A DNA stretch of 64,000 bases, taken from the NCBI RefSeq assembly GCF_000183725.1, contig NC_014762.1:1674001-1738000 (forward strand). Direction: 5' to 3'. Below the pieces are notes generated by a model. It was not told the DNA's origin, did no database searches, and saw only the letters and a program-made list of their open reading frames with translations. The stretch's first letter is position 1. Each line of letters begins with the position of its first letter. A program made the position numbers and the translations under genes. Shown here piece by piece: positions 13,420-63,495 of the stretch. The DNA is from Sulfuricurvum kujiense DSM 16994. Lineage in GTDB: Bacteria; Campylobacterota; Campylobacteria; Campylobacterales; Sulfurimonadaceae.

Positions 13420-13516
13420 AACGTCCCCTTTTTTAATGTATTGTGAAAATTATAACACGCTTTAGTGTATTTGGATTTAGGGAAAAATGTTGCAGAGAAG
13501 TGATTTATAATGTGTG

Positions 13517-13562
13517 TGGTGGGTCAAGCAGGATTTGAACCTGCGACAACCCCGTTATGAGA
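13517..13562 (-). pseudogene. 3' fragment of a CAU-anticodon tRNA (attachment site)
   Basis: Read on the minus strand the segment runs from an anticodon loop CTCATAA through a variable loop, a perfect T-stem/loop (GCAGG-TTCAAAT-CCTGC), the acceptor 3' strand TTGACCC, discriminator A and CCA. The 5' half of the tRNA is missing: bases beyond 13562 do not form a D-arm or acceptor partner. An integrase gene begins 140 bp away. This is the usual scar of an element integrated in a tRNA-Met/Ile2 gene; the rebuilt full tRNA should lie at the far end of the element and I do not see it in the window. Confidence 0.8.
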
Positions 13563-25486: not shown

Positions 25487-25488
25487 CA

Positions 25489-25959: not shown

Positions 25960-26039
25960 TGCTCACATTTATCCGCCTAACTGACGACAGCGACGATAAA
26001 GGCAAACTCGAAGTTATACTCAAGGTTGTTTCATTATGA
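25959..26039 (+). pseudogene. Relic of a second pglX C-half 5' end
   Basis: A 26-codon frame begins MLTFIRLTDDSDDKGKLE, closely matching the start of the PglX C-half at 27263 (MATYIRLTDYKDSDTKE), and then ends at a TGA overlapping the next ATG. It has its own AGGAG site. It is best read as the stump of a former pglX C-half truncated when the KAP gene and a new C-half arrived. It may now serve as a translated leader that couples the HEPN and KAP genes. Confidence 0.72.
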
Positions 26040-28999: not shown

Positions 29000-29044
29000 A
29001 ATACGGTTCGTTTTTCTGCATACTTCCGTATTTATGATATTATA

Positions 29045-29060
29045 ATGGAATGTATTCCAT
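29045..29060. promoter_or_regulatory. Palindromic operator over a -10 box
   Basis: ATGGAATGTATTCCAT is a perfect palindrome with 7-base arms and lies at the end of a TATAAT-like box (29040-29046), 17 bp before the ATPase start. A second inverted repeat (AAATACGG at 28999-29006 and CCGTATTT at 29026-29033) precedes it. These suggest a regulated internal promoter for the second half of the BREX operon. Confidence 0.5.
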
Positions 29061-29076
29061 AAAAGGATAAATATAA

Positions 29077-30360: not shown

Positions 30361-32849
30361 GCAAAATTACCGAGAGCCTCACCAAACTCTTCGACAAACA
30401 CCGCATTATCTTCTGGTACGACGATGGGGGCGCACTGCGTGAAGAGTTCGAATTTCTGACTCTGGACAATGTCGAAAAACGGCTCATTGCCAACAACGAG
30501 TTTTCGCTCAAAGTACAGATCCACCGCGCCCCGTCCGATCAGCGGTTTCTCATCTATGCTCCAAATCCTCAACCGGATGACGCGCACAACTGGCTGCTCG
30601 ATCTGAATCTCTCCGGCTACCTCTACAGTGCCGACCGCGCCTCGATGCTCATCGACGAACTGGGGATCGATCCGATCCATAAAGAGCTGATCCAAACCTA
30701 TGAGAAGTTTTTCAACGCCGAATCACGTCGGAGTAAGCTCATCCCCCTCATCGGCAAAGAGAGCGACGCCTCTGCCCTAAAAACCGCGATGCTCGCCGTG
30801 GTGTGCGGCTGTGAACCGCGACTTGAGTCGATCATCCTGAAAGTGTTGAGCTGGGTGTCAGAGGAGAACGACAAAAAGATCGCGGAAATCTCCGGGTATG
30901 GTCTGGATTCGTTCTTCTTTGACGAAATGCGCCGGATTTACCGATATGAGAGCGCGGAGCCTTCTTTCAAAGATTTCGCCTATGCCCTGATTCTGGCCCA
31001 CTTCTACAACACCCTCTCCCCTGCCAAAGCGGGGCTGAACGTCGATGCGGTCTATTTCGTCAAACACCAGTGGATCGATTCGCAGCGCCACCGGGAGAGT
31101 TTCATCCTCCTCTCCCGCCAGGTCGAAGAGATGCTGGGGATAAAAGAGACGCTTGAGAGCTATTCGCTCTCTCAGCTGGGGGAATGTGATACGTTCGAAT
31201 CGATCGACAAACGGATCATCATCGAACTACGCAACGGCATCCTCTCATCCCTGCTCGACGCCGACACCCTCATCGAGACGATCCGAAAGCGGGAAAAAAG
31301 TGTCTGGTTTGAGGAGTACCGCCATCTCTACAAAGCGCTCGAATACTCCGCGCTGCTGCTGCAGCGGATCAAAAGCTCCAGCCTTAAAATCGGTGGCCTA
31401 AAAGAGGGATTTGAACGGTATGCCTCGCTCTGGTACGAGACGGATACCCTCTATCGAAAAGCGCTCTATCACAGCGCGATGGCCGAACACATCGATGTCC
31501 TCAAATCGCTGATGAGCCAGGTGGAAAACGCCTATCTGGGCAGCTACCTGATCCCACTGGGAGACGCGTGGCAAGAGCACGTCAATACGATGGAGGAGTG
31601 GAAAATCCCCGGACTCATCAGTCAGCGGCAATTTTATGAGCACTACGTCGCCCCGCAGACGACAAACGATCGTAAAGTTTACGTCATCATCTCAGATGCG
31701 CTGCGTTATGAGTGCGCCAAAGAGCTCGAAAAACGGCTACTGGAGAAAAACCGCTACCAATGCTCGACCGAGGCGATGGTGGGGGTCCTTCCGAGCTACA
31801 CGCAGTTGGGGATCGCGTCACTGCTGCCGCACAACGAATTGGGATTATTGGGGAGTGATGACACCATCAGCGTCGATGGCAAATCCTCCGCAGGTGTCGC
31901 CAACCGCAACAAAATCCTCGAAGCTTCACCTGCAAGTGCCACCTATCTCAAATGGGATGAGTTCATCGGTATGGGCCGAGACGAGGGGCGGGAATTCGTC
32001 AAAGGGTTCCAGGTATTCTACATCTACCACGACCGGATCGATGCGATCGGCGACGATGCCAAAACCGAATCACACGTTTTCGAAGCGGTCGAAAAAGCGT
32101 ACGACGAGATCGAAAAGATCATCACCCAGGTGACCAATCTCAACGGCACCAACATCATCATCACCGCCGATCACGGCTTTTTGTATCAGAACAACGTCGT
32201 CGAAGAGACCGATCTGTGTCAGATCGACCGAAACGGCAGTACGATTACCAAATACAACCGCCGCTTTGTTTTGGGGCAAAACCTCAATACCCACGCGTGC
32301 GTCAAAAAGTTCTCCTTCGAACAGCTCGGCCTGAGCGGCACAGGTGAAGCCCTGATCCCAAAATCGGTCAACAAACTCCGCCTTCAGGGGGCGGGAAACC
32401 GATTCGTCCACGGAGGGGCGAGCCTGCAGGAGATCGTCGTGCCGGTGGTGCTGTTCAGCAAAAAACGCAAAGACGATGTCGAAAACGTCGACGTCGATAT
32501 CGTCAAATCGTTCAGCCGCATCTCCTCCAACCAGATAACCCTGACCCTGTGGCAGAAAACCCCTGCAGGGGATAAGATGCTCCCCCGCACCCTGTATGCG
32601 GGATTCTACGCCGGGGATGAGCTCGTATCCAACGAAGAGCAGCTCGTTTTCGGCAGTACGGACGAGGATTCCCGCAACCGCGAAGTGAAAGTCAAATTCC
32701 ACTTCGTCCAGACGATCAGCCAGTACAATAATCAGACGATTTCCCTGCGGCTCAGCGAACTCGAACCGGGTACTTCGCGTCGGCGGGTCTACAAACAAGA
32801 GCAGTTTTCGATCAACATCTCCTTCGTCAGCGAATTTGACGATTTCTAA
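30357..32849 (+). CDS. pglZ: BREX phosphatase-like protein PglZ
   Basis: Core BREX protein of the alkaline-phosphatase superfamily, 830 residues, normal for type 1. The PglZ domain starts near residue 440 with VYVIISDALRYE (metal-binding Asp). Further on is NIIITADHGFLYQ, the second metal site (Asp-His). The N-terminal 420 residues are helical. It overlaps the ATPase gene by 4 bases and brxL follows after 11 bp. Its biochemical target in BREX is not settled. Confidence 0.95.
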   Translation: MSKITESLTKLFDKHRIIFWYDDGGALREEFEFLTLDNVEKRLIANNEFSLKVQIHRAPSDQRFLIYAPNPQPDDAHNWLLDLNLSGYLYSADRASMLIDELGIDPIHKELIQTYEKFFNAESRRSKLIPLIGKESDASALKTAMLAVVCGCEPRLESIILKVLSWVSEENDKKIAEISGYGLDSFFFDEMRRIYRYESAEPSFKDFAYALILAHFYNTLSPAKAGLNVDAVYFVKHQWIDSQRHRESFILLSRQVEEMLGIKETLESYSLSQLGECDTFESIDKRIIIELRNGILSSLLDADTLIETIRKREKSVWFEEYRHLYKALEYSALLLQRIKSSSLKIGGLKEGFERYASLWYETDTLYRKALYHSAMAEHIDVLKSLMSQVENAYLGSYLIPLGDAWQEHVNTMEEWKIPGLISQRQFYEHYVAPQTTNDRKVYVIISDALRYECAKELEKRLLEKNRYQCSTEAMVGVLPSYTQLGIASLLPHNELGLLGSDDTISVDGKSSAGVANRNKILEASPASATYLKWDEFIGMGRDEGREFVKGFQVFYIYHDRIDAIGDDAKTESHVFEAVEKAYDEIEKIITQVTNLNGTNIIITADHGFLYQNNVVEETDLCQIDRNGSTITKYNRRFVLGQNLNTHACVKKFSFEQLGLSGTGEALIPKSVNKLRLQGAGNRFVHGGASLQEIVVPVVLFSKKRKDDVENVDVDIVKSFSRISSNQITLTLWQKTPAGDKMLPRTLYAGFYAGDELVSNEEQLVFGSTDEDSRNREVKVKFHFVQTISQYNNQTISLRLSELEPGTSRRRVYKQEQFSINISFVSEFDDF

Positions 32850-32860
32850 GAGGAAACACT

Positions 32861-34885
32861 ATGGATTTGAACCAAAAAATCATCGACAATTTTCCGGGAA
32901 AAGCGGTCCGAAAAGATCTGACCAAAAAGCTCAAAGGGGGCGTGAGCGTCCCGGTCTATGTCCTCGAATACCTGCTGGGGATGTACTGCGCCACGGACAA
33001 CGAAGAGACGATTGCCGAGGGGATCGAGAAGGTCAAAGAGATCCTGACCCAAAACTATGTCCGCCCCGATGAAGCGGAGATGGTCAAATCCCGGATCAAA
33101 GAGCGGGGGCGCTACAAAGTCATCGACAAGATTTCGGCCAAACTCAATGAAAAAGAGGACCGCTACGAAGCCGATTTCTCTAATCTCGGGATCAAACGGG
33201 TCATCATCCCCGCCGAGGTGATCAAAGAATACCAAAAACTCCTTGCCGGGGGGATCTGGTGTATCGTTACCATCAGCTATTTTTACGACGAGAACAACAA
33301 GGGAGAATCCCCATACGTCCTCGAATCGCTCAAACCGATCCAGATGCCGGGGATGGATCTCTCTGAGTTCCTGAGTGCCCGCAAAGCGTTCGAGAAAGAG
33401 GAGTGGATGGATCTGCTGATCCGTTCGACGGGGATGGAACCGGCAAACCTCGATATGAGTGCCAAATGGCACCTGATGGCACGTCTGATCCCCTTTGTCG
33501 AAAACAACTTCAATATGTGCGAACTGGGACCACGCGGAACGGGTAAATCGTATGTCTACAAAGAGATCTCCCCCAACTCGATCCTCGTCAGTGGCGGCCA
33601 GACGACGGTTGCCAACCTCTTTTACAATATGTCGAGCCGGACCGTCGGACTGGTTGGGATGTGGGATATCGTGGCGTTTGATGAAGTGGCCGGAATCCGG
33701 TTCAAAGACAAAGACGGCGTTCAGATTATGAAGGACTATATGGAATCAGGCAGCTTTGCTCGGGGCAAGGAGATGAAAGAAGCCCGTGCTTCGATGATCT
33801 TCGTCGGAAACATCGACGGCAGCATCGCCAATATCGTCAAGACCTCCCATCTTCTCAGTCCGTTCCCCAGCGAGATGATCGATACGGCGTTTTTCGACCG
33901 TTTCCATCACTATCTCCCCGGCTGGGAAGTGCCGAAGATGCGTCCGGAATTCTTCACAGACCAGTACGGATTTATTACCGACTATATGGCCGAATGGATG
34001 CGTGAGCTTCAAAAGAGCAATTTTTCCGATGCGATTGACCGCTATTTCCGTTTCGGAAAAGATCTCAACCAGCGCGACGTCAAGGCGGTCCGAAAAACGA
34101 CGAGCGGATTGCTGAAGCTGATGTTCCCGGATGGCAGCTTTACCAAAGAGGATGTCGAACAAGCATTGATCTATGCACTCGTCGGACGCCGCCGGATTAA
34201 AGAACAGCTCAAAAAGATTGGAGGGATGGAGTTCTATGACGTCCATTTCAGCTACATCGATCTCGAAAACGGTGAAGAGAAGTACGTCACCGTTCCTGAA
34301 AGCGGTGGCGGCGGATTGATTCCGGAGGGTGAACTCTCTCCGGGTGCACTCTATGCGGTTGCGACCAACAGTGCCAATGGCCATAAAGGTCTGATCCGAC
34401 TCGATTTGCAGGTAATGGGCGGAAACGGTAAAATGACCGATACGGGATTTGGAACGGGTACGATCAAAGATGAGCTTAAAGAGGCCCGCAACTATCTTCA
34501 GGCAAACCTCTCCCGTGTGTCGCTCTCTGCCAAATTCAGCGAGCACGATTACCATATCAAAGCCAACGATTTAAACGGCATAGGAGGAGCTCAGGGGCTC
34601 ACATTGGCGATATGGCTATCCCTGGTTTCAGGAACGCTTTCCAAGCCATTATTGCCTCAATTAGCTGTACTGGGGTCAATGGGGATCGGCGGTGGAATCA
34701 TCGGAACCGACAACCTCGCAGATGCGTTGCAGATCGCAGCGGACAGCGGTGCGAAACGGGTTCTCATCCCTGCGGCCGATATGGTCCATTACGGAACGGT
34801 TCCAACCGATTTGATGTCAAAGTTGCAGCCGATTATCTATACGGATCCAGTTGATGCGGCGATGAAGGCGATGGGGGTGAATTGA
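32861..34885 (+). CDS. brxL: BREX Lon-like AAA+ protein BrxL
   Basis: Last BREX-1 gene, 674 residues. The AAA+ domain has Walker A GPRGTGKS at 223-230 and a VAFDEVAGI Walker B-like segment. The C-terminal Lon-like domain (about 480-674) has GLTLAIWLSLVSG and GIGGGIIGTDNLADALQIA; I do not see a clear Ser-Lys protease dyad. BrxL forms DNA-binding rings and is needed for phage restriction. An AGAGGAAAC site precedes the ATG. It is convergent with the next gene with no spacer. Confidence 0.94.
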   Translation: MDLNQKIIDNFPGKAVRKDLTKKLKGGVSVPVYVLEYLLGMYCATDNEETIAEGIEKVKEILTQNYVRPDEAEMVKSRIKERGRYKVIDKISAKLNEKEDRYEADFSNLGIKRVIIPAEVIKEYQKLLAGGIWCIVTISYFYDENNKGESPYVLESLKPIQMPGMDLSEFLSARKAFEKEEWMDLLIRSTGMEPANLDMSAKWHLMARLIPFVENNFNMCELGPRGTGKSYVYKEISPNSILVSGGQTTVANLFYNMSSRTVGLVGMWDIVAFDEVAGIRFKDKDGVQIMKDYMESGSFARGKEMKEARASMIFVGNIDGSIANIVKTSHLLSPFPSEMIDTAFFDRFHHYLPGWEVPKMRPEFFTDQYGFITDYMAEWMRELQKSNFSDAIDRYFRFGKDLNQRDVKAVRKTTSGLLKLMFPDGSFTKEDVEQALIYALVGRRRIKEQLKKIGGMEFYDVHFSYIDLENGEEKYVTVPESGGGGLIPEGELSPGALYAVATNSANGHKGLIRLDLQVMGGNGKMTDTGFGTGTIKDELKEARNYLQANLSRVSLSAKFSEHDYHIKANDLNGIGGAQGLTLAIWLSLVSGTLSKPLLPQLAVLGSMGIGGGIIGTDNLADALQIAADSGAKRVLIPAADMVHYGTVPTDLMSKLQPIIYTDPVDAAMKAMGVN

Positions 34886-35803
34886 TCATCCTATATACCA
34901 GCTAGTGATGCTCGCCCGATTGTGCTTCATCTCCCAACTAACACCCTGCAAAGACTGTTCATACGTGTATCCCACCTTGGCATACTCCATCATGCGGCGC
35001 TTTGCAAAATTCCAACGAAGACCATGAGATGATTCCCTTGGAAAATTCAAAATGTCAGCCGTCTTTCGAAGATCAGTGTAATACATTTGCCGGTCGATTT
35101 TAAATTTGTCGTGTTCACGAATGTATCCTTCAAGCTGCACATAGGTCTCTTTTTCAACGAGTACCGGCCCCTCTTTGCCTCCCTTTTCACGGGTAAGGAT
35201 CGAATATTTTTCTTTTTGGGTGATAGAATCGAAAACGGCACCTCTTAATTGCTCCGCTTTGATAAGCCCTACCCCCTCAAATCTTGTACCTCCCTCATAC
35301 TGAATCCTGGATGAAAGCCTGTGAAGTGGATGAGAAAGCGTTTGAATCAATAAGTCCGGATCGGGATAAGCGCGGTTATGATAGTTGTCCGCCAGCAGAT
35401 CAAGATTTCGATAGAGTTTGAGCATCTCAAGCCGTTTTGAGAAATCGTAGTTTTTTTGTACTGCTCCCTTGGATTGGCTAAAACGATTCAGTGCCGCTTC
35501 CAGCTTTCCGATGGCCGATACAATTTTTTCCAGATAACTGCGTGATGGATAATACTCCACCTTGTACTCAAGATATGCAAGCACATGATGTTCTTCGATC
35601 TTCTCGATATCTTTGACGTTCCAATGCTCTCGCAGATAATGCATCAGATTTTCAAACACCCGACGGTAACTGGCGGCACTCTGATAGGAACTGAGCATCT
35701 GATAATGAGGACTATTCGGATCGCTTCGATCTTCTTTCTTCAATCCTGGCAAAAAGATAGAGCGAATCAATTCAGCACTTTGAAAATAGGGACTCCCCCG
35801 CAT
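34886..35803 (-). CDS. Divergent tyrosine recombinase
   Basis: A 305-residue protein with the spacing of a tyrosine-recombinase catalytic domain: Arg174 (GGTRFEGVGLI), a Lys in EKGGK (207-210), His260-Gly-Leu-Arg263, His294 (EMKHNR) and Tyr303 (TSWY). The N-terminal 110 residues form a SAM-like DNA-binding domain. It differs greatly from the integrase at 13703. It ends exactly at the brxL stop, converging with the BREX operon, so it may mark or mobilise the right end of the BREX block. Membership is inferred from residue pattern. Confidence 0.65.
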   Translation of the reverse strand: MRGSPYFQSAELIRSIFLPGLKKEDRSDPNSPHYQMLSSYQSAASYRRVFENLMHYLREHWNVKDIEKIEEHHVLAYLEYKVEYYPSRSYLEKIVSAIGKLEAALNRFSQSKGAVQKNYDFSKRLEMLKLYRNLDLLADNYHNRAYPDPDLLIQTLSHPLHRLSSRIQYEGGTRFEGVGLIKAEQLRGAVFDSITQKEKYSILTREKGGKEGPVLVEKETYVQLEGYIREHDKFKIDRQMYYTDLRKTADILNFPRESSHGLRWNFAKRRMMEYAKVGYTYEQSLQGVSWEMKHNRASITSWYIG

Positions 35804-40501: not shown

Positions 40502-40533
40502 ATAATACGTATAAATTCAGACACAATATGTCT
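40502..40533 (-). promoter_or_regulatory. Palindromic promoter A (for 40474 gene)
   Basis: On the minus strand AGACA-TATTG-TGTCT (40533-40519), then 11 bases, then TATTAT (40507-40502). The palindrome is perfect in its five-base arms and starts 46 bp before the ATG. It is the only member found outside 52-64 kb. Confidence 0.7.
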
Positions 40534-41189
40534 TCTTTTCTTTTTATACTTTGTCAGGTAAAAACACCTCCTCACGGTGGCATTTCACAAGTAACGTGCA
40601 TACAACTTTTACCGCACGCGGCTTAAGCGCCGATGACTAAGATGCAGTGCAGTGAGCTTTCTAAGAGAAATATGTCGCTTATAAAGATACTTATCATAGT
40701 TTCAATCAATCAGTTAAATATTAAGGGGTAATTTGGTTAAATTATTGCTCTGTTCACGTCAAAACACCATCGAATAAATGCTGGACAGGCTATGTCATAA
40801 ATCTCTTGTTAATCTGTTTTAAATAAATTTTAAAATATGCTTATTAATAAGAGATTGCTTCAATTGTTGAAAATAATAAATTAAGTTTTTACTGCAAAAA
40901 TCACATTTTTTTAGAATCATCTATTGGTCTTATTACATCTGATTATCCTCTGCTTATTATCTAGAAATTCTATCGTTTCTATGTCCTAATAAGTGTAGCC
41001 AGATCAAAATATTTTTAGCATTTTCCATGCATTTTATACGTCGATTCTCCGACAATCATCACTTTTATTCCGCGCTAAGATACTGGTCACTATGACTCAA
41101 CAAAAAAAGGGAGAGAATTGCAACACCTCTGAATCACCATCCACTATATCTTGTATAAAATACACTTGATAGAGATTTTATAAAGCTTG
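40534..41189. other. Non-coding stretch with a GC-rich block
   Basis: No supportable gene. The block 40565-40670 is much GC-richer than its surroundings and contains short inverted repeats (CGGCTTAAGCGCCG near 40618 and TGCAGTGCAGTG near 40650). Such isolated GC-rich blocks in AT-rich genomes often mark structured RNA. The rest (40680-41189) is AT-rich without clear signals. Confidence 0.35.
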
Positions 41190-52494: not shown

Positions 52495-52526
52495 ACTATA
52501 CACATTTAGCTGGACATGATTTGTCT
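52495..52526 (-). promoter_or_regulatory. Palindromic promoter B (ankyrin gene)
   Basis: Minus strand AGACA-AATCA-TGTCC (52526-52512), 11 bases, then TATAGT (52500-52495). It lies 48 bp before the ankyrin ATG. Confidence 0.75.
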
Positions 52527-52539
52527 GAATTTTCAAATA

Positions 52540-53529: not shown

Positions 53530-53949
53530 TTAAACGCTTTTATCTATATTATTCTTCATCTCAGTGCTTTTTTTATGTTTTATGATTTGCTCAATATAAT
53601 GCGACCACATCTCTCTAATCGAACTGTCGATATTGCTTAACCATCGCGTCACATTAATCCATTCCTCTTTGTGAATATATTCGACGATCCATTCCAAATC
53701 TGACATGACCTCATCACTGTCAAGGTACTTAGACGTTGATTTTTGCAATTGTTTTAACTCTTCAATAAAAGTATCTAATCGCTTTGTAATATCCTCTGTT
53801 TGCGATTTATTCAATTCAACTCGCAAATACTGAGCCTCCGTGCAAAGTTCCTTGATGCGCTCATAGTTTAGCCGTTTGGATTTTGGAGCAGTTTCACCGA
53901 TATACTCGTGTACTATTTCAATTTGTAGGGGATTTGGATTGTCATTCAT
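53530..53949 (-). CDS. Unknown coiled-coil protein
   Basis: A 139-residue charged, helical protein; residues 30-75 (ELCTEAQYLRVELNKSQTEDITKRLDTFIEELKQL) look coiled. No family recognised. It is transcribed from promoter C, which overlaps the last codons of the Sir2 gene. A GAGAGACAGC stretch precedes the ATG. Confidence 0.65.
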   Translation of the reverse strand: MNDNPNPLQIEIVHEYIGETAPKSKRLNYERIKELCTEAQYLRVELNKSQTEDITKRLDTFIEELKQLQKSTSKYLDSDEVMSDLEWIVEYIHKEEWINVTRWLSNIDSSIREMWSHYIEQIIKHKKSTEMKNNIDKSV

Positions 53950-53981: not shown

Positions 53982-54013
53982 GTATGCTGATTTAAATGGA
54001 CAGAATTTGTCTA
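53982..54013 (-). promoter_or_regulatory. Palindromic promoter C
   Basis: Minus strand AGACA-AATTC-TGTCC (54013-53999), 11 bases, CATACT (53987-53982). The palindrome doubles as the last sense codons of the Sir2 gene (residues RQILS), so the site is kept although it lies within coding sequence. It is 50 bp from the ATG of the 53530-53949 gene. Confidence 0.75.
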
Positions 54014-54867
54014 ATTCCTTCCAATCCACCAAATGGCAGTTTTATCGTCCCATGCAGTCCTTGATATTCTCGTGGGTTAATGCGTATCAAAGAGGTATGA
54101 AACTGTTTCGCGGCACTCTCACTCATACGACGAATAGATGCTATCGCCGTTCCGGCACCGATTTCAATGACAGCAACTTTCTTCTTTTCATTAGCCATAT
54201 CCAATTTCCAACGACCAAAACGTTTCATCTGCTTATCACTGCGTTCACTTATCCAATCCCAATCGCCGAACATCAATATATTTGGGCGGGCCAACGCACT
54301 GCATTTTGGACAGAGTGGATACGGTGCTTGTGCTTGGAACACTTCCATATTTACTGTGATCTTCGTCTCCTTAGCAGACCATATTCCATGATCTTTACTC
54401 GCTGTACATTGTAGATGATGGATACTTCCATGTATTTCGCAGATTTGAGCTTCATCAAACCCTGCTTTTTGGAATTGCCCATCGACGTTTGAGGTAAGGA
54501 TAAAATAGTTATCCCCTTTGGAATGACATAATTCTAGTAGCTTCGAAAATCCTTCATGAGGAATAGTCTCACTATAGAGGTTTAGACGGTGACCATAAAA
54601 TGCCCACGCCAGAGATGGGTCCCGTTCAAACCATTCGGGATTGGCGAGAGCTTCAAACGATAGTCCTCTCGCTTTTGCAACAGGGTATGCTTGCCAAAAT
54701 CCGGTATTGCCTCTAAAATCGGGGAGTCCGCTATCCACACCCATTCCTGCTCCGGCGGTGATGAGGATCGCGTCAGCTGATTCTATAATGGCACTTGCTT
54801 GCTGAATGTAGCGTTCTATCTCATCAGTCTTCAAGCTCAGCCGCCCACATTGCTTCTTTTTTTGCAT
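53992..54867 (-). CDS. Sir2-family NAD-dependent protein
   Basis: A 291-residue Sir2 domain protein: GAGMGVDSGLPDFRG (NAD binding), TSNVDGQF, catalytic His in EIHGSIHHLQC, a partial zinc site (one Cys, then CPKC), and RPNILMFGDWDW. It could deacylate proteins or, as in several defence systems, cleave NAD. It overlaps the upstream unknown gene by 44 bases; a TTG at about 54834 might be the real start, because no good ribosome site precedes the ATG. Expression is from promoter D. Confidence 0.85.
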   Translation of the reverse strand: MQKKKQCGRLSLKTDEIERYIQQASAIIESADAILITAGAGMGVDSGLPDFRGNTGFWQAYPVAKARGLSFEALANPEWFERDPSLAWAFYGHRLNLYSETIPHEGFSKLLELCHSKGDNYFILTSNVDGQFQKAGFDEAQICEIHGSIHHLQCTASKDHGIWSAKETKITVNMEVFQAQAPYPLCPKCSALARPNILMFGDWDWISERSDKQMKRFGRWKLDMANEKKKVAVIEIGAGTAIASIRRMSESAAKQFHTSLIRINPREYQGLHGTIKLPFGGLEGIRQILSI

Positions 54868-55279
54868 GCAGCTCTTTTGCTACATCATATGACATAATCC
54901 AAACTACCGCATCAAGGCATTTTGGTTCACCATTTTCATCTTCATAGCGATTGTTGATCACATGATATTCGAGACTATCTATCTCAACATCGATCGCGAT
55001 AGTTCCCAAAAACGGCCATTCCAAATATCCTAACGGCACATTGTCAAAAACATCTACAATTGCAATATGAGGGTAATTCTCTTTCATCCATTGGATGAAT
55101 TCATCCCGTTTTTCCCAATTCGTCTTCTTTTTATCCAAAAACCCCATAAATCCATTCTCTTCTTCGATACGAATGCCGAGCCTTGCTTTGGCGTAGGGTT
55201 CATTAAATGAGATGAAGATGGTGTCTTTTTTGCGAACCTGACTGATATATTCTTCAATTGTTGCAAGTATTTGTGCCAT
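54824..55279 (-). CDS. Unknown protein coupled to Sir2
   Basis: A 151-residue soluble protein, acidic, Trp-containing (FLDKKKTNWEKRDEFIQWMKENYP), not recognised. It is the first gene after promoter D and overlaps the Sir2 gene, so the two are likely made together. A partner, target or inhibitor of the Sir2 protein is the simplest reading. An AGGAAATAAA site precedes the ATG. Confidence 0.68.
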   Translation of the reverse strand: MAQILATIEEYISQVRKKDTIFISFNEPYAKARLGIRIEEENGFMGFLDKKKTNWEKRDEFIQWMKENYPHIAIVDVFDNVPLGYLEWPFLGTIAIDVEIDSLEYHVINNRYEDENGEPKCLDAVVWIMSYDVAKELHAKKEAMWAAELED

Positions 55280-55311: not shown

Positions 55312-55343
55312 AGTATATCTTCAAATTTGGACATAATTTGTCT
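55312..55343 (-). promoter_or_regulatory. Palindromic promoter D (unknown-Sir2 pair)
   Basis: Minus strand AGACA-AATTA-TGTCC (55343-55329), 11 bases, TATACT (55317-55312). It lies 50 bp before the ATG at 55279. Confidence 0.78.
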
Positions 55344-55346
55344 AGA

Positions 55347-56394: not shown

Positions 56395-57072
56395 CTATTT
56401 AAAGGTTTTATATACTTCTGTAGGAAATATTATGTCTTGAACACCTACTTTTTCTTTCCAGAAATTATAAATACCACGAGCAATAGGTTCAAATTCTTGT
56501 GCAGTAATAAAATCACTTTTTGCATTATTACAAACATGACATGCAAGCCTACAATTTTCCACACTGTATAAATTATGACCATCAGAAGTATCAACTCGTT
56601 CTATTTCTAAGGATACACCTCGTGTTTTTCGCTTTAATCTGACATATGGAGTACTTAAATTATTGACACCATCTAAAGAAATTTTTATTTTGCTTTGATT
56701 CACTCCACAATAACAACACGTTTCACCATTTTTAATCTGTTCTATATACCATCCATAAAATTCTTTCCAATCATGAAATTGAAATTCACCTTCGTTAGCA
56801 CTACTTTTTTTATTACTATATTTCTGATATATTTCATCAATTGTTACTTTATCTGTAGACATTGAATCTTTAAGGTTTAAATATTCAATAATGTCTATAT
56901 TAAAGATTTGATCTGCAATACATTTGTCAATTCCGCCATTTTTAGCATACATTTCTTTCAGTTTTTCTGCTGAAATCTCAATCTTCTCTGCAATTTGCGC
57001 ATAAGTGCAAATTCGTTCGATAAACACTGTGTCAAAATATTTTTTCTCCAAATCTGTCATATCAAGCTCCAA
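56395..57072 (-). CDS. HNH endonuclease with zinc site
   Basis: A 225-residue protein. The C-terminal half is HNH-like: CCYCGVNQ (first Cys pair), LEIERVDTSDGHNLYSVENCRLACHVCNNAKSDFITAQEF with the second Cys pair (CHVC) and the NNAKSD end typical of the fold. The N-terminal 110 residues are helical and may choose the target. It is divergent from the 57178 gene; the palindrome between them fits the other gene better. Confidence 0.78.
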   Translation of the reverse strand: MELDMTDLEKKYFDTVFIERICTYAQIAEKIEISAEKLKEMYAKNGGIDKCIADQIFNIDIIEYLNLKDSMSTDKVTIDEIYQKYSNKKSSANEGEFQFHDWKEFYGWYIEQIKNGETCCYCGVNQSKIKISLDGVNNLSTPYVRLKRKTRGVSLEIERVDTSDGHNLYSVENCRLACHVCNNAKSDFITAQEFEPIARGIYNFWKEKVGVQDIIFPTEVYKTFK

Positions 57073-57115
57073 TCATTATTGTTGACATCATATCATTATT
57101 CGTTCTTAGTGAAGT

Positions 57116-57147
57116 GGATATTTACTGTCCACTTTCCATCCTATACT
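57116..57147 (+). promoter_or_regulatory. Palindromic promoter G (57178 gene)
   Basis: Plus strand GGATA-TTTAC-TGTCC (57116-57130), 11 bases, TATACT (57142-57147). It lies 47 bp before the ATG at 57178. It also lies 43 bp from the divergent HNH start, but no -10 box is found at the proper distance on that side. Confidence 0.72.
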
Positions 57148-57503: not shown

Positions 57504-57854
57504 CTATTGTGCTTTCACTTCATTATATTTGAACTCCATATAAGTATGTAAATAGATTCGTATATTTTCTGCACCAACAGGGTTGGCAGAATGAACGATG
57601 AACGTGAAATTTTTCGGAATACTGATGATCCCATCCATATCCATCTCCACCAACCATTTTGCAAAATCATAACCTGATGGATGCACTTTCAACGTATTAT
57701 CCATTCCTAAATCATGATCGAATGAGATAAACATAGGTACCCCGCAGGTAAGAATCAAATTTTGAGCATCTTTAACTGTTCTTGAAATGACGAAGGTTGG
57801 ATCTTTGGGTGTTCGTATGTCGTCAAGATACAGTTTCCACTCCATGCATCTCAT
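57504..57854 (-). CDS. Cyclic-phosphate processing receiver domain protein (cREC)
   Basis: A 116-residue stand-alone receiver-like domain of the cREC type predicted to act on cyclic phosphate nucleotide ends: LYLDDIRTPKD, FISFDHDLG and HSANPVGAENI are the diagnostic blocks. The ATG overlaps the stop of the AAA gene (ATGA), so the two proteins are coupled. The role of cREC in a nucleotide- or RNA-signalling step is established only by prediction. Confidence 0.78.
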   Translation of the reverse strand: MRCMEWKLYLDDIRTPKDPTFVISRTVKDAQNLILTCGVPMFISFDHDLGMDNTLKVHPSGYDFAKWLVEMDMDGIISIPKNFTFIVHSANPVGAENIRIYLHTYMEFKYNEVKAQ

Positions 57855-59956
57855 CGTAAAAATCCCATTTTTTTCAAATCATCATGCTGTTTGATTTTGA
57901 CTTCATCTATCAATCGATCCAACAAATCATTTGCAGTTATTATCGGGGAAAACCGACTCTGTCTTCGAATTGCCGCAAAATCTCCCGGAGTGAGTCTGCT
58001 CAAACTTTTAATATCATTTTCAACAGATCTTGAAATGGTGTCAATCCCCATCAATATGGTCTCTTTCGTAAAGAGCTCCAATGATTGTTGGGGCTTGAGA
58101 TACCCAAATTCAAGCTTGAGATCAAACCGTCGTAAAGATGCTTGATCCAGTCCATCCATTAGATTGGTAGTTGCTATAAAAATACCGTTATAGTTTTCCA
58201 TCTGAACCAGCATTTCATTCACCTGCGTCACTTCCCATGATGCCTTAGCGGATCTACGATCTTGCAAAAAACTGTCCACTTCATCGAAGATCAAAACAGC
58301 ATTTTCTTCCATTGCTTCTTTAAAAGCACGAGCGATATTTTTCTCAGTTCCACCAACCCACATCGACATCAGATCCGATCCTTTTTTGAGTAAAAATGGT
58401 CGATCGAGTTCACGTGCTATCCACTGCCCAAATGCACTTTTTCCTGTTCCTGGAGCACCGTATAAACAGATACGGGCACTTTGATGTTTAGCAATACCTG
58501 CAACCAGAGCTTTCAGATCATGCTCCGTATTGACGAATGATGGATCATAGCTTGAGGGAAGCTCAATTATCCCCTCTTTTTCAAGACCTCTAAACCCTTG
58601 TGCTTTCAATGTATTCTCAACAATCATTTCAAATGCTTTTGATGGTTCTTGCATATGATCTTGAATCGCTTGAACCACTTTGGCGGCACGTGTAATAATT
58701 GCCGGTGAAACATTTTCATTTTTGGCTATCTTTTCGATAACGGTATCGCTTAAAAAATCTCCTGAGTTGTTTTGGATAATTTCACGTCGTTTAGCCTTCG
58801 GAGGTACCGGGATTTCAATGACCATATCAAAGCGTCGAATGGTTGCATCATCGATAGCTCCTGCATTGTTGGTAATCCACACAGAGGGAACCACATTGTT
58901 TTCTAAAATGCGATTGAACCACCCCTTTTTATTTTGTTTTTTTCGTGGACCAAAAAGTCCGATTTCTTCATCTTGCATTACATCTTCGATCTCATCGAAC
59001 ATTAAAATGATCTTTTTCTTTTGCAATAATGTTTGAGCCGTTCGGTAGGCTCGTAGTCGTCGATCTCCATCGATAGGATCATCATCCTCATCAGCATAAC
59101 TCACTTCAAAAAGCTCAATGTCGAGTTCTTTGGCTATGGTTTTGACCAGTTCAGTTTTGCCTGTACCGGGTCGACCATACAAGAGGATATTGACCCCTTT
59201 GTGTTTTGCTTCAATCGCTTCACGCATATAGGGAACTAATATATTTAGCTGCTCGGCGATATGTGTGTAATCATTCAATGTAAGATCATTCATCTCGCAG
59301 CGTCGAACGGAGTCTTTGATCATTGATTCGACATCGTCATCATCGCAAGTCATCATTTTTTCTATAAATCCGTTGTATGCTACATCTATTTTCTGGCGCA
59401 TCGAATGGCTACTATTGCGATCGATACTCAAAAGTCCCGCCTGAGCTAAACGCCCCCTTGGTGATAAAGCCTTTTTAATTTCTTCTATACTGCGTCCTAA
59501 TAATACACTTAATACAATCTGCAACTGTTCGGCGGTTAAATCCCCTATCGTTCGAGTCGCTTCATCAAATATCCTATAGTAGTTTAGATACACCACAAAA
59601 CGGAGAACGTCTTGTTCTATCCCATCCAACCCGACCAATGAAGATAGTTTCGCAATATTTACCTCTAAAATAGGTGAAGAAGGCTTAGGACTTTTTTCCA
59701 GTTTACGCAATAGCTTTTCTAGACTTCCTAAAACTACTTGTCTCTTCTTTGGTTCATCACTGTTAATGTATTCACCAAATCCTAAAAAATCAGCGACATT
59801 ATCATAATGGATCCGATTATCATCCATAAAATTTCGCATACCTCCGAGTTTTACAATACACATTAACGACCAATAAGCGATAAGCTCTTTACTGTGTGAT
59901 TCTACATAGTAAGTCTCATTGATAGACAAATCTAGTGTGGTTTGTTTAGTGTTCAT
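57851..59956 (-). CDS. Double AAA+ ATPase
   Basis: A 701-residue protein with two AAA domains. The first (about 230-400) has Walker A YGRPGTGKT and Walker B ILMFDEIED; the second (about 480-640) has YGAPGTGKS and VLIFDEVDSFLQD with the arginine-finger region LRRFD in both. The N-terminal 220 residues are helical and not recognised. CDC48/Vps4-like remodelling of a protein partner is expected. It is divergent from the FtsZ-like operon with paired palindromic promoters between them. Confidence 0.85.
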   Translation of the reverse strand: MNTKQTTLDLSINETYYVESHSKELIAYWSLMCIVKLGGMRNFMDDNRIHYDNVADFLGFGEYINSDEPKKRQVVLGSLEKLLRKLEKSPKPSSPILEVNIAKLSSLVGLDGIEQDVLRFVVYLNYYRIFDEATRTIGDLTAEQLQIVLSVLLGRSIEEIKKALSPRGRLAQAGLLSIDRNSSHSMRQKIDVAYNGFIEKMMTCDDDDVESMIKDSVRRCEMNDLTLNDYTHIAEQLNILVPYMREAIEAKHKGVNILLYGRPGTGKTELVKTIAKELDIELFEVSYADEDDDPIDGDRRLRAYRTAQTLLQKKKIILMFDEIEDVMQDEEIGLFGPRKKQNKKGWFNRILENNVVPSVWITNNAGAIDDATIRRFDMVIEIPVPPKAKRREIIQNNSGDFLSDTVIEKIAKNENVSPAIITRAAKVVQAIQDHMQEPSKAFEMIVENTLKAQGFRGLEKEGIIELPSSYDPSFVNTEHDLKALVAGIAKHQSARICLYGAPGTGKSAFGQWIARELDRPFLLKKGSDLMSMWVGGTEKNIARAFKEAMEENAVLIFDEVDSFLQDRRSAKASWEVTQVNEMLVQMENYNGIFIATTNLMDGLDQASLRRFDLKLEFGYLKPQQSLELFTKETILMGIDTISRSVENDIKSLSRLTPGDFAAIRRQSRFSPIITANDLLDRLIDEVKIKQHDDLKKMGFLR

Positions 59957-59983: not shown

Positions 59984-60015
59984 ACTATAACGCTACAATT
60001 GGACACTTTTTGTCC
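59984..60015 (-). promoter_or_regulatory. Palindromic promoter H (AAA-cREC pair)
   Basis: Minus strand GGACA-AAAAG-TGTCC (60015-60001), 11 bases, TATAGT (59989-59984). It lies 45 bp before the ATG. Promoter I for the divergent operon begins only 19 bp away. Confidence 0.8.
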
Positions 60016-60034
60016 ATTTAATAATCTTAAAACG

Positions 60035-60066
60035 AGACATTTTTTGTCTAGATAAATCGATACACT
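60035..60066 (+). promoter_or_regulatory. Palindromic promoter I (FtsZ-like operon)
   Basis: Plus strand AGACA-TTTTT-TGTCT (60035-60049), 11 bases, TACACT (60061-60066). It lies 46 bp before the ATG at 60096. Confidence 0.8.
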
Positions 60067-60095
60067 TCTTTAATCTCTAACAAAGGAAATTGCTT

Positions 60096-60995
60096 ATGTA
60101 TCCATTTGATCTTAATGAAACCAACTTGCAAAATAAACTCAAAATCGTTGCGATTGGGGTTGGAAGTAGTGGTGAAAACATTATCGAATACATCCAAAGA
60201 CAAAAAGTTCAAGGAATAAAACTAATAATCGTCAATTCGTGGTATCAGGAGAGTAGTGAAGAGCTTTCTCAAGCATTATCTGATGCAGACATAGTTTTTA
60301 TCACATTTGGCCTGGGTGGAAATACAACTAGCCTTTCTTCTCAAATCATCGCGAAAATCGCGAAAGAATCAAGTGCATTAACGATAGCTGTAGTGACCAA
60401 ACCTTTTCGATTTGAAGGACAAAAACGACGTCAAATTGCCGATTCATGTCTAATGGAACTGAAAAATATATGTGATTCAGTTGTGGTAATACCCTGTGAC
60501 AAACTACTCGAAAGCATAGATCCAACTACTAAAATACAAGATAGTTTTAAATTCGTTGATAGCATCGTTTCCAACGTGATATTTAGTATAAGTGGGGTGA
60601 TTTTTTCAAGCGGAGACAATGATATTAATCTGGATATTAACGATCTTCGAACTATCATGAGTAAAAAAGGGAGTGCGATTGTAGGCATAGGAGAAAATCA
60701 GGGTAACAATGCAGCATATGAAGCCATCACATCAGCGATTGATTTGATGAGCACTGATGATCTCTCCATTAAAAATGCAACTGGAGTTCTGGTTCATTTT
60801 ACGTTGCATCCAGAATTCGACTTTATAAAACTTAGTACTGCAATTGATATTATTCATAGCAATGTCGGTGAATCGGCTGATGTTATCTTTGGAACTACTA
60901 CCGATAAAAATATCCCTATCGATTTTATACAAATCACTATCATTGCTACTGGCTTCGAGAAAGTACTCATGGTACCAGTGAACAATGTATTCTGA
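60096..60995 (+). CDS. FtsZ-like protein with altered GTP-binding loop
   Basis: A 299-residue tubulin/FtsZ-superfamily protein. It aligns by eye along the full FtsZ core: KIVAIGVGSSGENII (15-30), VFITFGLGGNTTSLS (67-81), IAVVTKPFRFEGQKRR (97-112), VIPCDKLL, NLDINDLRTIM (178-188) and TIIATGF. The tubulin signature GGGTGTG is replaced by GLGGNTTS, while the T7-loop Asn178, Asp180 and Asp183 needed for catalysis are kept. The C-terminal tail that binds FtsA/ZipA is absent. The ATG at 60096 has an AAAGGA site. It leads an operon with an unknown protein, GIY-YIG and WYL proteins. Confidence 0.85.
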   Translation: MYPFDLNETNLQNKLKIVAIGVGSSGENIIEYIQRQKVQGIKLIIVNSWYQESSEELSQALSDADIVFITFGLGGNTTSLSSQIIAKIAKESSALTIAVVTKPFRFEGQKRRQIADSCLMELKNICDSVVVIPCDKLLESIDPTTKIQDSFKFVDSIVSNVIFSISGVIFSSGDNDINLDINDLRTIMSKKGSAIVGIGENQGNNAAYEAITSAIDLMSTDDLSIKNATGVLVHFTLHPEFDFIKLSTAIDIIHSNVGESADVIFGTTTDKNIPIDFIQITIIATGFEKVLMVPVNNVF

Positions 60996-61024
60996 TTTAA
61001 AGATAGATGCAAAGGAGCACGACA

Positions 61025-61327
61025 ATGGAGTTTAAAGCGGAAGAAAAATTCCATAATGCACTTGGATATATGTGTGAACGGTATCCAGGATTCCAGACAA
61101 AAGATTTAAAACATATTATGAGTATTCTCAACACATCAATGCTCGACGGATTGTTTGAAAGACGAGAATACAAAAGAAAGCTTCAATATGTCGGAGAAAG
61201 CAATGAGCACTTTACGCATGGGCAAATATATGAATCATTGACATTTAATGGGGCGACTTATGAAATTATTGATGATACCATGGCACTCAATATTATAGGC
61301 CGTACGCATTTTGATAGAATAGGATAG
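61025..61327 (+). CDS. Unknown 100-residue protein
   Basis: A small helical protein (EKFHNALGYMCERYPGFQTKDLKHIMSILN, then YEIIDDTMALNIIG). Not recognised. The ATG at 61025 has an AAAGGAG site; an ATG at 61007 has none. It sits 29 bp after the FtsZ-like gene and could be its regulator or adaptor. Confidence 0.65.
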   Translation: MEFKAEEKFHNALGYMCERYPGFQTKDLKHIMSILNTSMLDGLFERREYKRKLQYVGESNEHFTHGQIYESLTFNGATYEIIDDTMALNIIGRTHFDRIG

Positions 61328-61358
61328 AATCTTTATACTAAAAATGGAGAAAATAAAA

Positions 61359-61895
61359 ATGGAAAATATGGTCAATGATGCTGTAGAAATATTCATCGAG
61401 TGGAAAGGACCATATACCTTAGATGAATTAAATACATTAAAAGATGACAATAAAGATTACGGTGTTTATCAAATATATGGAACGCATCCTGTATATGGTT
61501 CCCATGTATTACTATATATTGGTAAAGCTGCAGAACAAACATTTGGTCAAAGAATTGGACAAGAGGGTTGGTATTTGAATTCTGATAAAGACCATGTACA
61601 AATATATGTAGGGCGATTATTTGGAAAAAATCAACCAAATGAAGATGATTGGAATCACTTGATATCATTAGCAGAGCAATTATTGATATTTAGCCATTGG
61701 CCAGCTGGTAATTCATCAAATATAAATTCCATTTCTCGAAAAAAAGAAATGCTTGAAACATTCAAAAATATTCGAATCTATAATTATGATAACCACAGAA
61801 ACTTGATGCCAGAAGTATCAGGAAAAATATATATTGAAGAGTTGGAATTTGACGATACACATATTTTTTCTACAAGTCGAAAGAAAAGGAAATAA
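61359..61895 (+). CDS. GIY-YIG-fold protein
   Basis: A 178-residue protein with a GIY-YIG-like domain: GVYQIYG (35-41), LLYIGKA (51-57), Arg65, and Glu106 in LAEQLLIFSHWPAGNSSN with the late Asn. These are the conserved positions of GIY-YIG nucleases. Spacing suggests a shortened or atypical member, so catalysis is likely but not certain. The ATG at 61359 has a GGAGA site. WYL follows after 5 bp. Confidence 0.7.
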   Translation: MENMVNDAVEIFIEWKGPYTLDELNTLKDDNKDYGVYQIYGTHPVYGSHVLLYIGKAAEQTFGQRIGQEGWYLNSDKDHVQIYVGRLFGKNQPNEDDWNHLISLAEQLLIFSHWPAGNSSNINSISRKKEMLETFKNIRIYNYDNHRNLMPEVSGKIYIEELEFDDTHIFSTSRKKRK

Positions 61896-61900
61896 TAACC

Positions 61901-62830
61901 ATGCCTCTTCATTTCGAAAAGACGGGTTCAAAATACGACCGTCTCTCTTATATCTACGACCGCCTCTCTCGCTCACCTGATGGAGTAACCATCAAAGACC
62001 TAGCCGAAGAACTCAAAGTCAGTACGAAAACTGTACAGCGTGACCTGCATGAAGCACTGTCAGGAAGTGGGGTTTATTGCGACGGACGGCGTTGGAAACT
62101 TAGCAGAAACAGTGCAGAAGACGGCTTAGCCAACGAAGAACGTATCGTTCTTGGTGTTCTTGATTCTTTAGCCAAACAAGCTGGTTCTGCTTTTTACAAC
62201 AAAGCCCATCAGCTTTTGGAACAGGTAACCTGCCAGCTCGATCATCCCCTCTTTGCCAATCTCGATACTGAAACTCTCTCAGAAGATCATATTAAGACTT
62301 TTTCACTTCTCGAAAACGCTATTAAAGCTCGTCATGAAATCACCGCGATGTATACAGCAGTCAACAAACGCAAGCGTACTGTCAAACTAAAACCCCTTCG
62401 TCTCGCTTTTTTTGATGGCTATTGGTATTTGTTGGCATTTGATGCCGAAGACAAGGATACGTTTAAAAAATTCCATCTAAAATCACTCGCTGCTATCGTT
62501 GAAACCGAAGAATCGTTTATCTATCCCAAAGATGTTGCTTCAGCTATCGAAAAAGCATACTCGGTATGGTTTTCGCTCAATGACTCATTTGAAGTACGCT
62601 TATGGGTTGATAAAACCATCGCCCCCTACTTCGAACGTAAACCCTACCACGGGCAAAGCATCGAGGGTCGAGATCCGGATGGCTCCATCGAAGTCGTTTT
62701 GAAAATAACCGATGAAATGGAAATCCTCCCTATCGTTCAATGGTATCTACCGCATGTTCGTATTTTGGAACCGGAGTGGATCAATGAGATGCTCATGGAG
62801 AAAATTGCAACCTATACAAAAGGGCTTTAA
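61901..62830 (+). CDS. WYL-domain transcription factor
   Basis: A 309-residue regulator: N-terminal winged helix (about 8-65: SYIYDRLSRSPDGVTIKDLAEELKVSTKTVQRDLHEAL) and a WYL domain (about 140-220, with RLAFFDGYWYLLAFD), then a C-terminal dimerisation part. WYL proteins such as BrxR and CapW control defence genes and may sense nucleic acid or nucleotides. It is the last gene of the operon under promoter I, so it is the natural candidate to bind the ten palindromes and to regulate itself. Confidence 0.92.
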   Translation: MPLHFEKTGSKYDRLSYIYDRLSRSPDGVTIKDLAEELKVSTKTVQRDLHEALSGSGVYCDGRRWKLSRNSAEDGLANEERIVLGVLDSLAKQAGSAFYNKAHQLLEQVTCQLDHPLFANLDTETLSEDHIKTFSLLENAIKARHEITAMYTAVNKRKRTVKLKPLRLAFFDGYWYLLAFDAEDKDTFKKFHLKSLAAIVETEESFIYPKDVASAIEKAYSVWFSLNDSFEVRLWVDKTIAPYFERKPYHGQSIEGRDPDGSIEVVLKITDEMEILPIVQWYLPHVRILEPEWINEMLMEKIATYTKGL

Positions 62831-62842
62831 GTCGATTAAAGC
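62824..62842. terminator. Hairpin between convergent genes
   Basis: GCTTTAA-GTCGA-TTAAAGC forms a 7-bp stem and 5-base loop across the facing stops of the WYL gene and the 62836 gene. On the minus strand it is followed by CCCTTTT, so it could stop both transcripts. Confidence 0.5.
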
Positions 62843-63432
62843 ACCTTCCACCCTTCCAATTCTTTCCACAAGACTTCATCACGAACATACATCCACATCT
62901 CATCATCCGCTTCGCACTTGTTATTTTCAACTGTCCAAAGATCTTTTGGCATTTCATCCGCTCTAAAGATTCGTTCATTAAATCCTATTGAGTCCAGTAT
63001 CTCGCTTATCTCATAATAACGTCGCAATCCCCTCTTTATGGTCGTCATCGGTCCACGAATAATGACAGGAGGGTTTTTACGGCGAATGTAATGGATTAGA
63101 TTTTTTCCGATAATCTTACGCACGATACTGCGATTTACCGGATCAGAGAAATAATGCTTTGTAGATAGCCCCGATTGAGCATCTACATCACTTAGTTTTG
63201 AAAACCGGGCTTGCTTTTCATCATGTTTTTCAATCTCTATTTGATATCCAAAATTGACAATGGGTATATGCCATCGCAAACTCTCCCCAACGGCTTTATA
63301 TTTTATTCTCAGTAGAACATAAAAACTGTTATCCACCCAAAAACGATACTCACTGGTATGCTCAATTGGATGATCCTGAAAAAAATATCCCTTATCGACT
63401 TCAACAAGTTTCATGCTTTCTGTAAGCATCAT
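62836..63432 (-). CDS. Unknown 198-residue protein
   Basis: A soluble protein, Trp- and Tyr-rich, mixed alpha/beta, with a C-terminal stretch (DLWTVENNKCEADDEMWMYVRDEVLW) not known to me. An AAGGA site precedes the first ATG. Promoter J lies 48 bp upstream, so it belongs to the palindrome-controlled set even though it faces the WYL operon. Confidence 0.66.
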   Translation of the reverse strand: MMLTESMKLVEVDKGYFFQDHPIEHTSEYRFWVDNSFYVLLRIKYKAVGESLRWHIPIVNFGYQIEIEKHDEKQARFSKLSDVDAQSGLSTKHYFSDPVNRSIVRKIIGKNLIHYIRRKNPPVIIRGPMTTIKRGLRRYYEISEILDSIGFNERIFRADEMPKDLWTVENNKCEADDEMWMYVRDEVLWKELEGWKVL

Positions 63433-63462: not shown

Positions 63463-63495
63463 ATGATACGGAGAATACGAGACACAAATATGTCC
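63463..63495 (-). promoter_or_regulatory. Palindromic promoter J (62836 gene)
   Basis: Minus strand GGACA-TATTTG-TGTCT (63495-63480; six-base centre), 11 bases, TATCAT (63468-63463). It lies 48 bp before the ATG. Confidence 0.72.

Follow-up and report, generated by a model that had tools for sequence, protein, structure and literature searches.

What role does an altered copy of the cell division protein FtsZ play on a bacterial genomic island, and what controls its expression? The question is raised by a locus of Sulfuricurvum kujiense DSM 16994 (genome G000, 2.82 Mb), where the gene of an FtsZ-derived protein, here called FtsZL, opens an operon FtsZL-U106-GIY-WYL encoding also a small protein, a GIY-YIG-like protein and a WYL regulator, and faces a gene pair for a double AAA+ ATPase and a cREC protein across two palindromic promoters. 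The locus lies in a stretch of 64,000 nucleotides, in the following called the window (C4:1674001–1738000, contig NC_014762.1), and the coordinates of all features are collected in the table. A sequence-only reading made before this computational analysis had proposed that the products form one machine, perhaps acting on division or phage replication. We tentatively favour, at a little under even confidence, stress-induced arrest of the cell cycle through host-derived mimics of FtsZ and DnaA under a DriD-like WYL regulator.

FtsZL matches FtsZ along its whole length, with Pfam matches to Tubulin (PF00091, 1.4e-18) and FtsZ_C (PF12327, 2.4e-16) both above the cut-off, and over residues 50–297 it is 58% identical to the canonical FtsZ of the host, which is encoded elsewhere (C4:852448). 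The altered T4 loop, the acidic T7 residues and the missing tail that had been noticed from the sequence are all present. T4 reads GLGGNTTSL in place of GLGGGTGTG in the host, T7 is changed from NLDFADLQTVMS to NLDINDLRTIMS with both acidic residues retained, and the protein ends right after the C-domain, without the linker and the tail (canonical DFLDVPTF) for partners of the FtsA/ZipA type. The largest change had been missed, namely a clean gap of 35 residues in the alignment with host FtsZ that comprises the end of T2, H2 and T3. With the T3 region (canonical GLGAG) deleted, and GVGSSGEN in T1 where the canonical loop is of the GGGGGN type, the GTP pocket of a working FtsZ is incomplete. 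The positions that are invariant in canonical FtsZ survive at 9 of 30 places in the pocket (T1, T3 region and T4), at 9 of 12 in the T7 region and at 31 of 43 elsewhere in the C-domain, the best-kept part of the protein, and the score with the NCBIfam ftsZ equivalog is 221.8 bits, below the cut-off of 295.2. The predicted fold is that of the FtsZ/tubulin superfamily with N and C domains; the AlphaFold2 model (mean pLDDT, a per-residue confidence score, 79.7) has Bacillus subtilis FtsZ as its top structural match (Z 37.0, rmsd 1.5 over 270 residues), which is to be expected and is not independent evidence, since canonical FtsZ sequences were in the alignment of the model. A filament-forming GTPase, as proposed in the sequence-only reading, is unlikely because the nucleotide pocket is largely deleted, and for the present an action on division is the best guess.

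Only G000 and G353 among 397 genomes of the class have a full-length FtsZL in one piece. The two proteins are 45% identical and have the same deletion and the same end point, in open frames with their own operator promoters. The tree groups them as sisters (97/97) nested in the FtsZ clade of g1 (100/100), although G353 is a genome of genus g2 with a g2 FtsZ of its own; its FtsZL gene is, as judged from the tree, a horizontally transferred duplicate derived from g1. Other FtsZ derivatives (G404, G330) are placed elsewhere on long branches, and the tree suggests several independent captures, a placement that falls short of proof.

Reduced forms are present as N-half genes in G077, G193, G257, G413 and G069, as C-half genes in G135, G169, G379, G124, G440 and G328, and as both halves in separate genes in G041, G069 and G217. 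Most C-containing forms retain the acidic T7 motif and the N-halves a T1-like loop. Each reduced form lacks something that a functional FtsZ subunit requires, and usually one polymer face is better preserved than the other, as would be expected of an end-capper or sequesterer. The FtsZ-like loci were collected regardless of WYL and the WYL genes were located independently with the Pfam profile, and 10 of the 21 loci are found at most 5 kb from a WYL gene, against 0.19 expected (P ~2e-16). G135 and G169 are close relatives, but the result is essentially the same with one of them left out. Loci in G217 and G440 and another one in G257 came from searches that started with U106 and the GIY protein, and a refined profile, with no hits in a reversed-sequence control, contributed G328, which brings the total to 14 loci in seven families where WYL and an FtsZ-derived gene are at most 5 kb apart. 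At 7 loci an operator is located directly upstream of the FtsZ-derived genes. A literature search, with most subscription journals outside its scope, found no paper linking truncated FtsZ with WYL.

The two divergent genes of the locus, and at least six other promoters of the island, have the same type of operator at the same distance from the -10 box, and the joint expression argued for in the sequence-only reading is thus a well supported prediction. The back-to-back palindromes are above chance: the 2.82-Mb genome has the exact consensus TKGACAN5TGTCYA at no more than four different sites, none of them farther than 11 kb from this locus. A scan allowing three mismatches was not above chance, but the exact consensus and the -10 geometry were. 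In the loci first examined GACA-N5-TGTC has 48 sites against 5.5 expected, and in many genomes a form with an N6 spacer replaces the N5 palindrome. The -10 box begins exactly 12 nucleotides after TGTC for spacers of 5 and 6 alike, TATA[ACT]T being present at this offset in 25 of 96 and 18 of 102 site orientations and almost never at other offsets. In related loci adding up to 1 Mb, the combined motif GACA-N5/6-TGTC-N12-TANNNT is found 115 times, compared with 1–2 times in shuffled sequence, a density that is silent on whole genomes because the loci were chosen for AAA, WYL or FtsZ-like genes; in 81 kb around canonical ftsZ there are 0 sites. The genes directly behind the operator encode AAA (26 loci), FtsZ-derived proteins (7), WYL (5), SIR2 (5), HNH (5) and U151 (4). 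U151 and SIR2 of the island carry operators also in other genomes, as does a U139 homologue in G041. Membership of the regulon is highly probable.

The adjacent WYL protein presumably binds the GACA-N5/6-TGTC palindrome, because the operator precedes WYL genes and co-occurs with them. When 12 of these WYL proteins are combined in a profile, DriD (8tp8, 9pfq) is matched over the full length, while the matches to BrxR and CapW are partial and ranked behind, and the top match by E-value, PafBC, covers the WYL domain only. By these comparisons DriD is the nearest full-length solved relative. PafBC promoters may have a spacing of TGTC to TAnnnT similar to that of the operators here, a likeness given no weight as evidence. 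The architecture of helix-turn-helix (HTH), WYL and WCX domains and the palindrome at a fixed distance from the -10 box are those of the DriD type; DriD sites overlap the -35 region at the same distance from the -10 box in every target promoter, and single-stranded DNA makes DriD activate transcription (PMC12340889). DriD switches on the division inhibitor DidA independently of SOS (PMC4211646). The LexA DNA-binding domain, expected for an SOS regulon, was not found in the S. kujiense genome, and 119 of the 121 genomes sampled lack it; Campylobacter is without LexA as well (PMC5665897). By analogy with DriD, the WYL protein would activate rather than repress, with single-stranded DNA as the trigger.

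Genes derived from DnaA are also found under this operator. The second DnaA gene at the right end of the island is complete and its product is 65% identical to the chromosomal DnaA (C4:73), with an exact operator about 44 nucleotides upstream of the start, beyond the window (L070:1394–1410), and a TAGTAT box. In G217 a DnaA-like protein consisting of the AAA+ domain only (domain III) has its own operator, and its gene lies beside WYL, SIR2, GIY and an FtsZN-FtsZC pair that is under an operator too. In G330 the genes WYL-GIY are preceded by a DnaA-like AAA+ region whose frame is interrupted, and some 4 kb upstream lies an FtsZ-like pair that has an operator. From these three loci it follows that three families combine FtsZ- and DnaA-derived genes with WYL.

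According to the arrest reading, the WYL protein would sense a trigger, probably single-stranded DNA from DNA damage or phage replication, and the regulon would fire. FtsZL would then be produced, unable to hold or cleave GTP normally. As its bottom face is kept and the top is missing, its expected binding site is the GTP face of free FtsZ; the T7 face would dock on the nucleotide face of host FtsZ, and FtsZL would tie up FtsZ in the GTP-bound state or cap the filament at one end, leading to a pause in division. The opposite FtsZ face would be the target of the N-half mimics in other genomes, and DnaA-derived members may restrain the initiation of replication in a similar way. In a wider version, parts of the cell's own FtsZ and DnaA would have come under one WYL switch time and again in Campylobacterota, as an SOS-like checkpoint in which the inhibitors mimic their targets, split or pocket-less FtsZ for division and DnaA or its AAA+ domain for replication; this is possible and rather doubtful.

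Several points weigh against this reading. The full-length FtsZL is present in only 2 of the 397 class genomes. Other WYL proteins, such as BrxR, are repressors (PMC9122601). A -35 box is not generally regarded as a requirement of Campylobacterota promoters, so that repression would fit the position of the operator too. Bottom-interface mutants of FtsZ are toxic and top-interface mutants are not (PMC8936486), so FtsZL, which resembles the latter, may be a weak poison only. The N-halves are without the bottom face, and the toxic class of mutants would fit them better. Many of the neighbouring genes (nucleases, SIR2, BREX, McrBC) suggest phage defence and not damage control.

A defence role could mean that the FtsZ imitations are decoys or guards, which bind phage-made inhibitors of FtsZ and thereby spare host FtsZ or trigger nuclease partners (GIY-YIG, HNH, DnaQ-like). 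CapRel-Ebc senses the complex that phage T7 Gp0.4 forms with FtsZ (PMC13423816), nuclease genes recur beside the FtsZ-derived genes, defence genes are abundant on the island, and the best-kept part of FtsZL is the C-domain, the polymerisation face of which is bound by SulA, MciZ and MinC (PMC11938149). Lone N-halves or C-halves would however be poor copies of the full target, a toxic partner is not constant, and the DnaA pieces would require a second phage target, making decoys an unlikely explanation. We give similarly little credence to a function off division, in which the FtsZ-derived proteins would be structural or nucleotide-sensing subunits of a WYL-controlled nuclease complex for defence or repair, together with U106 and GIY-YIG. 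It would suit the gene order here, the order FtsZC-WYL-GIY-like-U106 in G257, the position of U106 between the halves in G069, and the N-halves, which adjoin DnaQ-like, GIY-YIG and HNH genes and keep a T1-like loop; against this, FtsZ-derived genes are without U106 or GIY in G135, G169, G193 and G379, WYL is the only constant partner, and for FtsZL at least the source was recent and an FtsZ of the host type, an unexpected origin for a generic scaffold.

The one machine of FtsZL, AAA+, GIY-YIG and cREC agrees with the back-to-back co-regulated promoters and with an AAA-FtsZN-FtsZC operon in G041, and FtsZ-like genes are, as the sequence-only reading expected, found near AAA also in G353, G077 and G404 (about 3.6, 5 and 16 kb). 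cREC is not a constant partner, being seen beside AAA only here and as a short match in G451. In this genome the AAA and WYL genes, 85 and 82% identical to those of G000, face each other across a gap that holds two operators and nothing else, FtsZL being absent, and for this reason FtsZL-U106-GIY resembles a cassette that was either inserted between AAA and WYL or lost from there. Most FtsZ-derived genes adjoin WYL without an AAA gene, and of the 35 AAA-bearing class genomes examined, only about 5 have an FtsZ-like gene close to AAA. With AAA, cREC and FtsZL separate in other genomes, the single machine was rejected as the principal explanation and is very unlikely. The least credible explanation is a non-functional remnant, a truncated ftsZ copy carried by the island. 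The patchy distribution, the long branches and the loss of the GTP pocket and tail would be in line with it, but a decaying copy, which the sequence-only reading had considered, would not be expected to have the same deletion and end point in open frames of two genera at 45% identity, with the T7 motif kept, an operator promoter of its own in both, and FtsZ pieces repeatedly beside WYL, and it was rejected.

The other genes described from the sequence, for a protein of about 100 residues, a protein with a GIY-YIG motif and WYL in the operon and for the AAA+ and cREC proteins facing it, are all present. U106 was also listed as 106 residues from 61007, but the ATG given in the table is preferred because the ribosome-binding site falls inside the longer reading. 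Its AlphaFold2 model (pLDDT 71.3) gives weak SH3-like matches (Z ~7), and homologues are present in five other sampled genomes (G069, G257, G419, G397 and G455), in G257 beside WYL. The GIY protein has relatives in 7 further genomes of the class, three of which adjoin WYL genes; those of G330, G217, G317 and G440 lie near WYL, and the one of G419 is next to U106; another GIY protein, beside the N-half in G413 (L116), has a match at 1.7e-4, just under the cut-off. Homologues of AAA are found in 35 of the 397 class genomes, with an operator upstream at 26 loci, and with 127 bits the protein falls below the cut-off of 510 for the IetA-type equivalog of the IetAS anti-phage system. PADLOC gave no match for FtsZL, U106 or the GIY protein, and no relatives were found by pattern search of the genome-contig and viral-contig collections for FtsZL, or in the viral-contig collection for AAA. 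In tblastn against phages and plasmids there were solely FtsZ-like matches below 60% identity, many in unannotated records.

The region lies in a tRNA island of about 52 kb, because an integrase gene (13703–14797) comes after the 46-bp exact repeat of part of a tRNA-Met gene. BREX-like, AddAB-like and McrBC-like genes, recognised by eye, are located left of the FtsZL locus on the same island. The BREX-like set at 17724–35803 contains BrxC-, PglX-, PglZ- and BrxL-like genes and is interrupted by extra genes, including one for an AAA protein (29077–30360), and two more operator-like palindromes are found mid-island beside small genes (40520–40798). Across Campylobacterota the operator precedes many accessory genes (L010, L031 to L059), among them AAA, SIR2, HNH, U151, families of 195 and 110 residues and BspA-like repeats; at L050:1294–2118 two adjacent BspA-like repeat genes have near-identical operator promoters, as if promoter and gene had been duplicated together.

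Some FtsZ-like genes have other surroundings. In G413 and G069 N-halves are found beside a DnaQ-like exonuclease, GIY-YIG, HNH and a small cysteine-rich protein (L116:1390–2895, L117:996–2214, L121:253–1988). The N-half in the AAA operon of G041 (L032:11441–12976) has an N-terminal membrane-like helix, and the C-half behind it is read in two overlapping frames, either a real frameshift or a sequencing error. A truncated ftsZ with the T7 side kept is located directly downstream of canonical ftsZ in G100, G287 and G373 (L108:2460–3110, L109:2305–2955, L110:3017–3511), with no operator or WYL nearby, and a reduced FtsZ-like protein of 243 residues in G072 (L068:8753–9484) is encoded in an apparent housekeeping row (ABC ATPase, RNase H) with neither a WYL gene nor an operator nearby.

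Table. Features of the island in window coordinates, unless another sequence is named.
Feature	Position	Strand	Remarks
Left attachment repeat of island	13516..13561		46 bp, part of tRNA-Met gene (genome C4:1739771)
Operator	52511..52527	-	TATAGT box; upstream of ankyrin-like gene (52030 to ~52490)
Operator, exact	53997..54013	-	Upstream of U139 gene 53530-53949
Operator, exact	55328..55344	-	TATACT -10 box; upstream of U151-SIR2 genes (53992-55279)
Operator-like palindrome	57115..57131		One mismatch; flanked by HNH gene 56395-57072 (-) and an open reading frame on the + strand
cREC protein	57504..57854	-	Pfam cREC_REC 1.4e-23
Double AAA+ ATPase	57851..59956	-	Two AAA domains (Pfam)
Operator of AAA promoter	60000..60016	-	Perfect TGGACA-N5-TGTCCA; -10 box TATAGT 59984-59989
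Operator of FtsZL promoter	60034..60050	+	GAGACATTTTTTGTCTA; -10 box TACACT 60061-60066; class-wide geometry
FtsZL, FtsZ-derived	60096..60995	+	299 residues; H2/T3 deleted, T1/T4 altered, T7 kept, no C-terminal tail
U106	61025..61327	+	100 residues; helical N-terminus, predicted SH3-like C-terminal barrel
GIY-YIG-like protein	61344..61895	+	GVY...YIG motif by eye; no Pfam hit
WYL regulator, DriD-like	61901..62830	+	HTH-WYL-WCX; Pfam HTH_11, WYL, WCX
Operator, 6-nucleotide spacer	63481..63494	-	TATCAT box; upstream of gene 62836-63432
Second DnaA	63518..64000, past window end	-	443 residues; C4:1737521-1738849; L070:19-1350

How bacteria without LexA halt division on DNA damage or phage replication is poorly understood, and if the arrest reading is true, a WYL regulon with FtsZ- and DnaA-derived effectors would give the answer for part of a whole class, and a mimic binding the nucleotide face would be a new way to block FtsZ. 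The promoter signature GACA-N5/6-TGTC-N12-TATAAT can be used for finding further members, the natural collection of split FtsZ domains is useful for studies of filament polarity, and the class-wide WYL regulon of Campylobacterota merits a separate study.

Among known systems DriD-DidA of Caulobacter has the same HTH-WYL-WCX regulator, a palindrome overlapping -35 at a fixed distance from the -10 box, independence of SOS, and a regulon that joins a division inhibitor with replication and nuclease genes (didA, dnaG, recJ and bapE for DriD), but DidA is small and acts on the late divisome protein FtsN whereas the candidates here are FtsZ-derived, the regulon here is on islands, and its activation is a prediction. 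Like SulA, FtsZL would be a damage-induced direct antagonist of FtsZ; SulA is however LexA-controlled, LexA not being found here, is unrelated to FtsZ, and binds the C-domain (bottom) face where FtsZL would bind the nucleotide (top) face. MciZ, the FtsZ filament capper of Bacillus, resembles the predicted action of FtsZL in capping FtsZ ends, but is a short peptide unrelated to FtsZ that binds the bottom interface. Hda is a DnaA-derived brake on replication, a housekeeping protein that like the one in G217 has the DnaA AAA+ domain III without the DNA-binding domain, whereas the G217 gene is under a WYL-type operator in an accessory locus. CapRel-Ebc also ties FtsZ to phage immunity, with the host's own FtsZ and a fused toxin-antitoxin in place of an FtsZ derivative. 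BrxR and CapW share the WYL regulator, the defence-rich island and the inverted repeats, but they repress one defence operon, whereas here one operator serves many dispersed promoters, including those of cell-cycle-derived genes, at a fixed distance from the -10 box.

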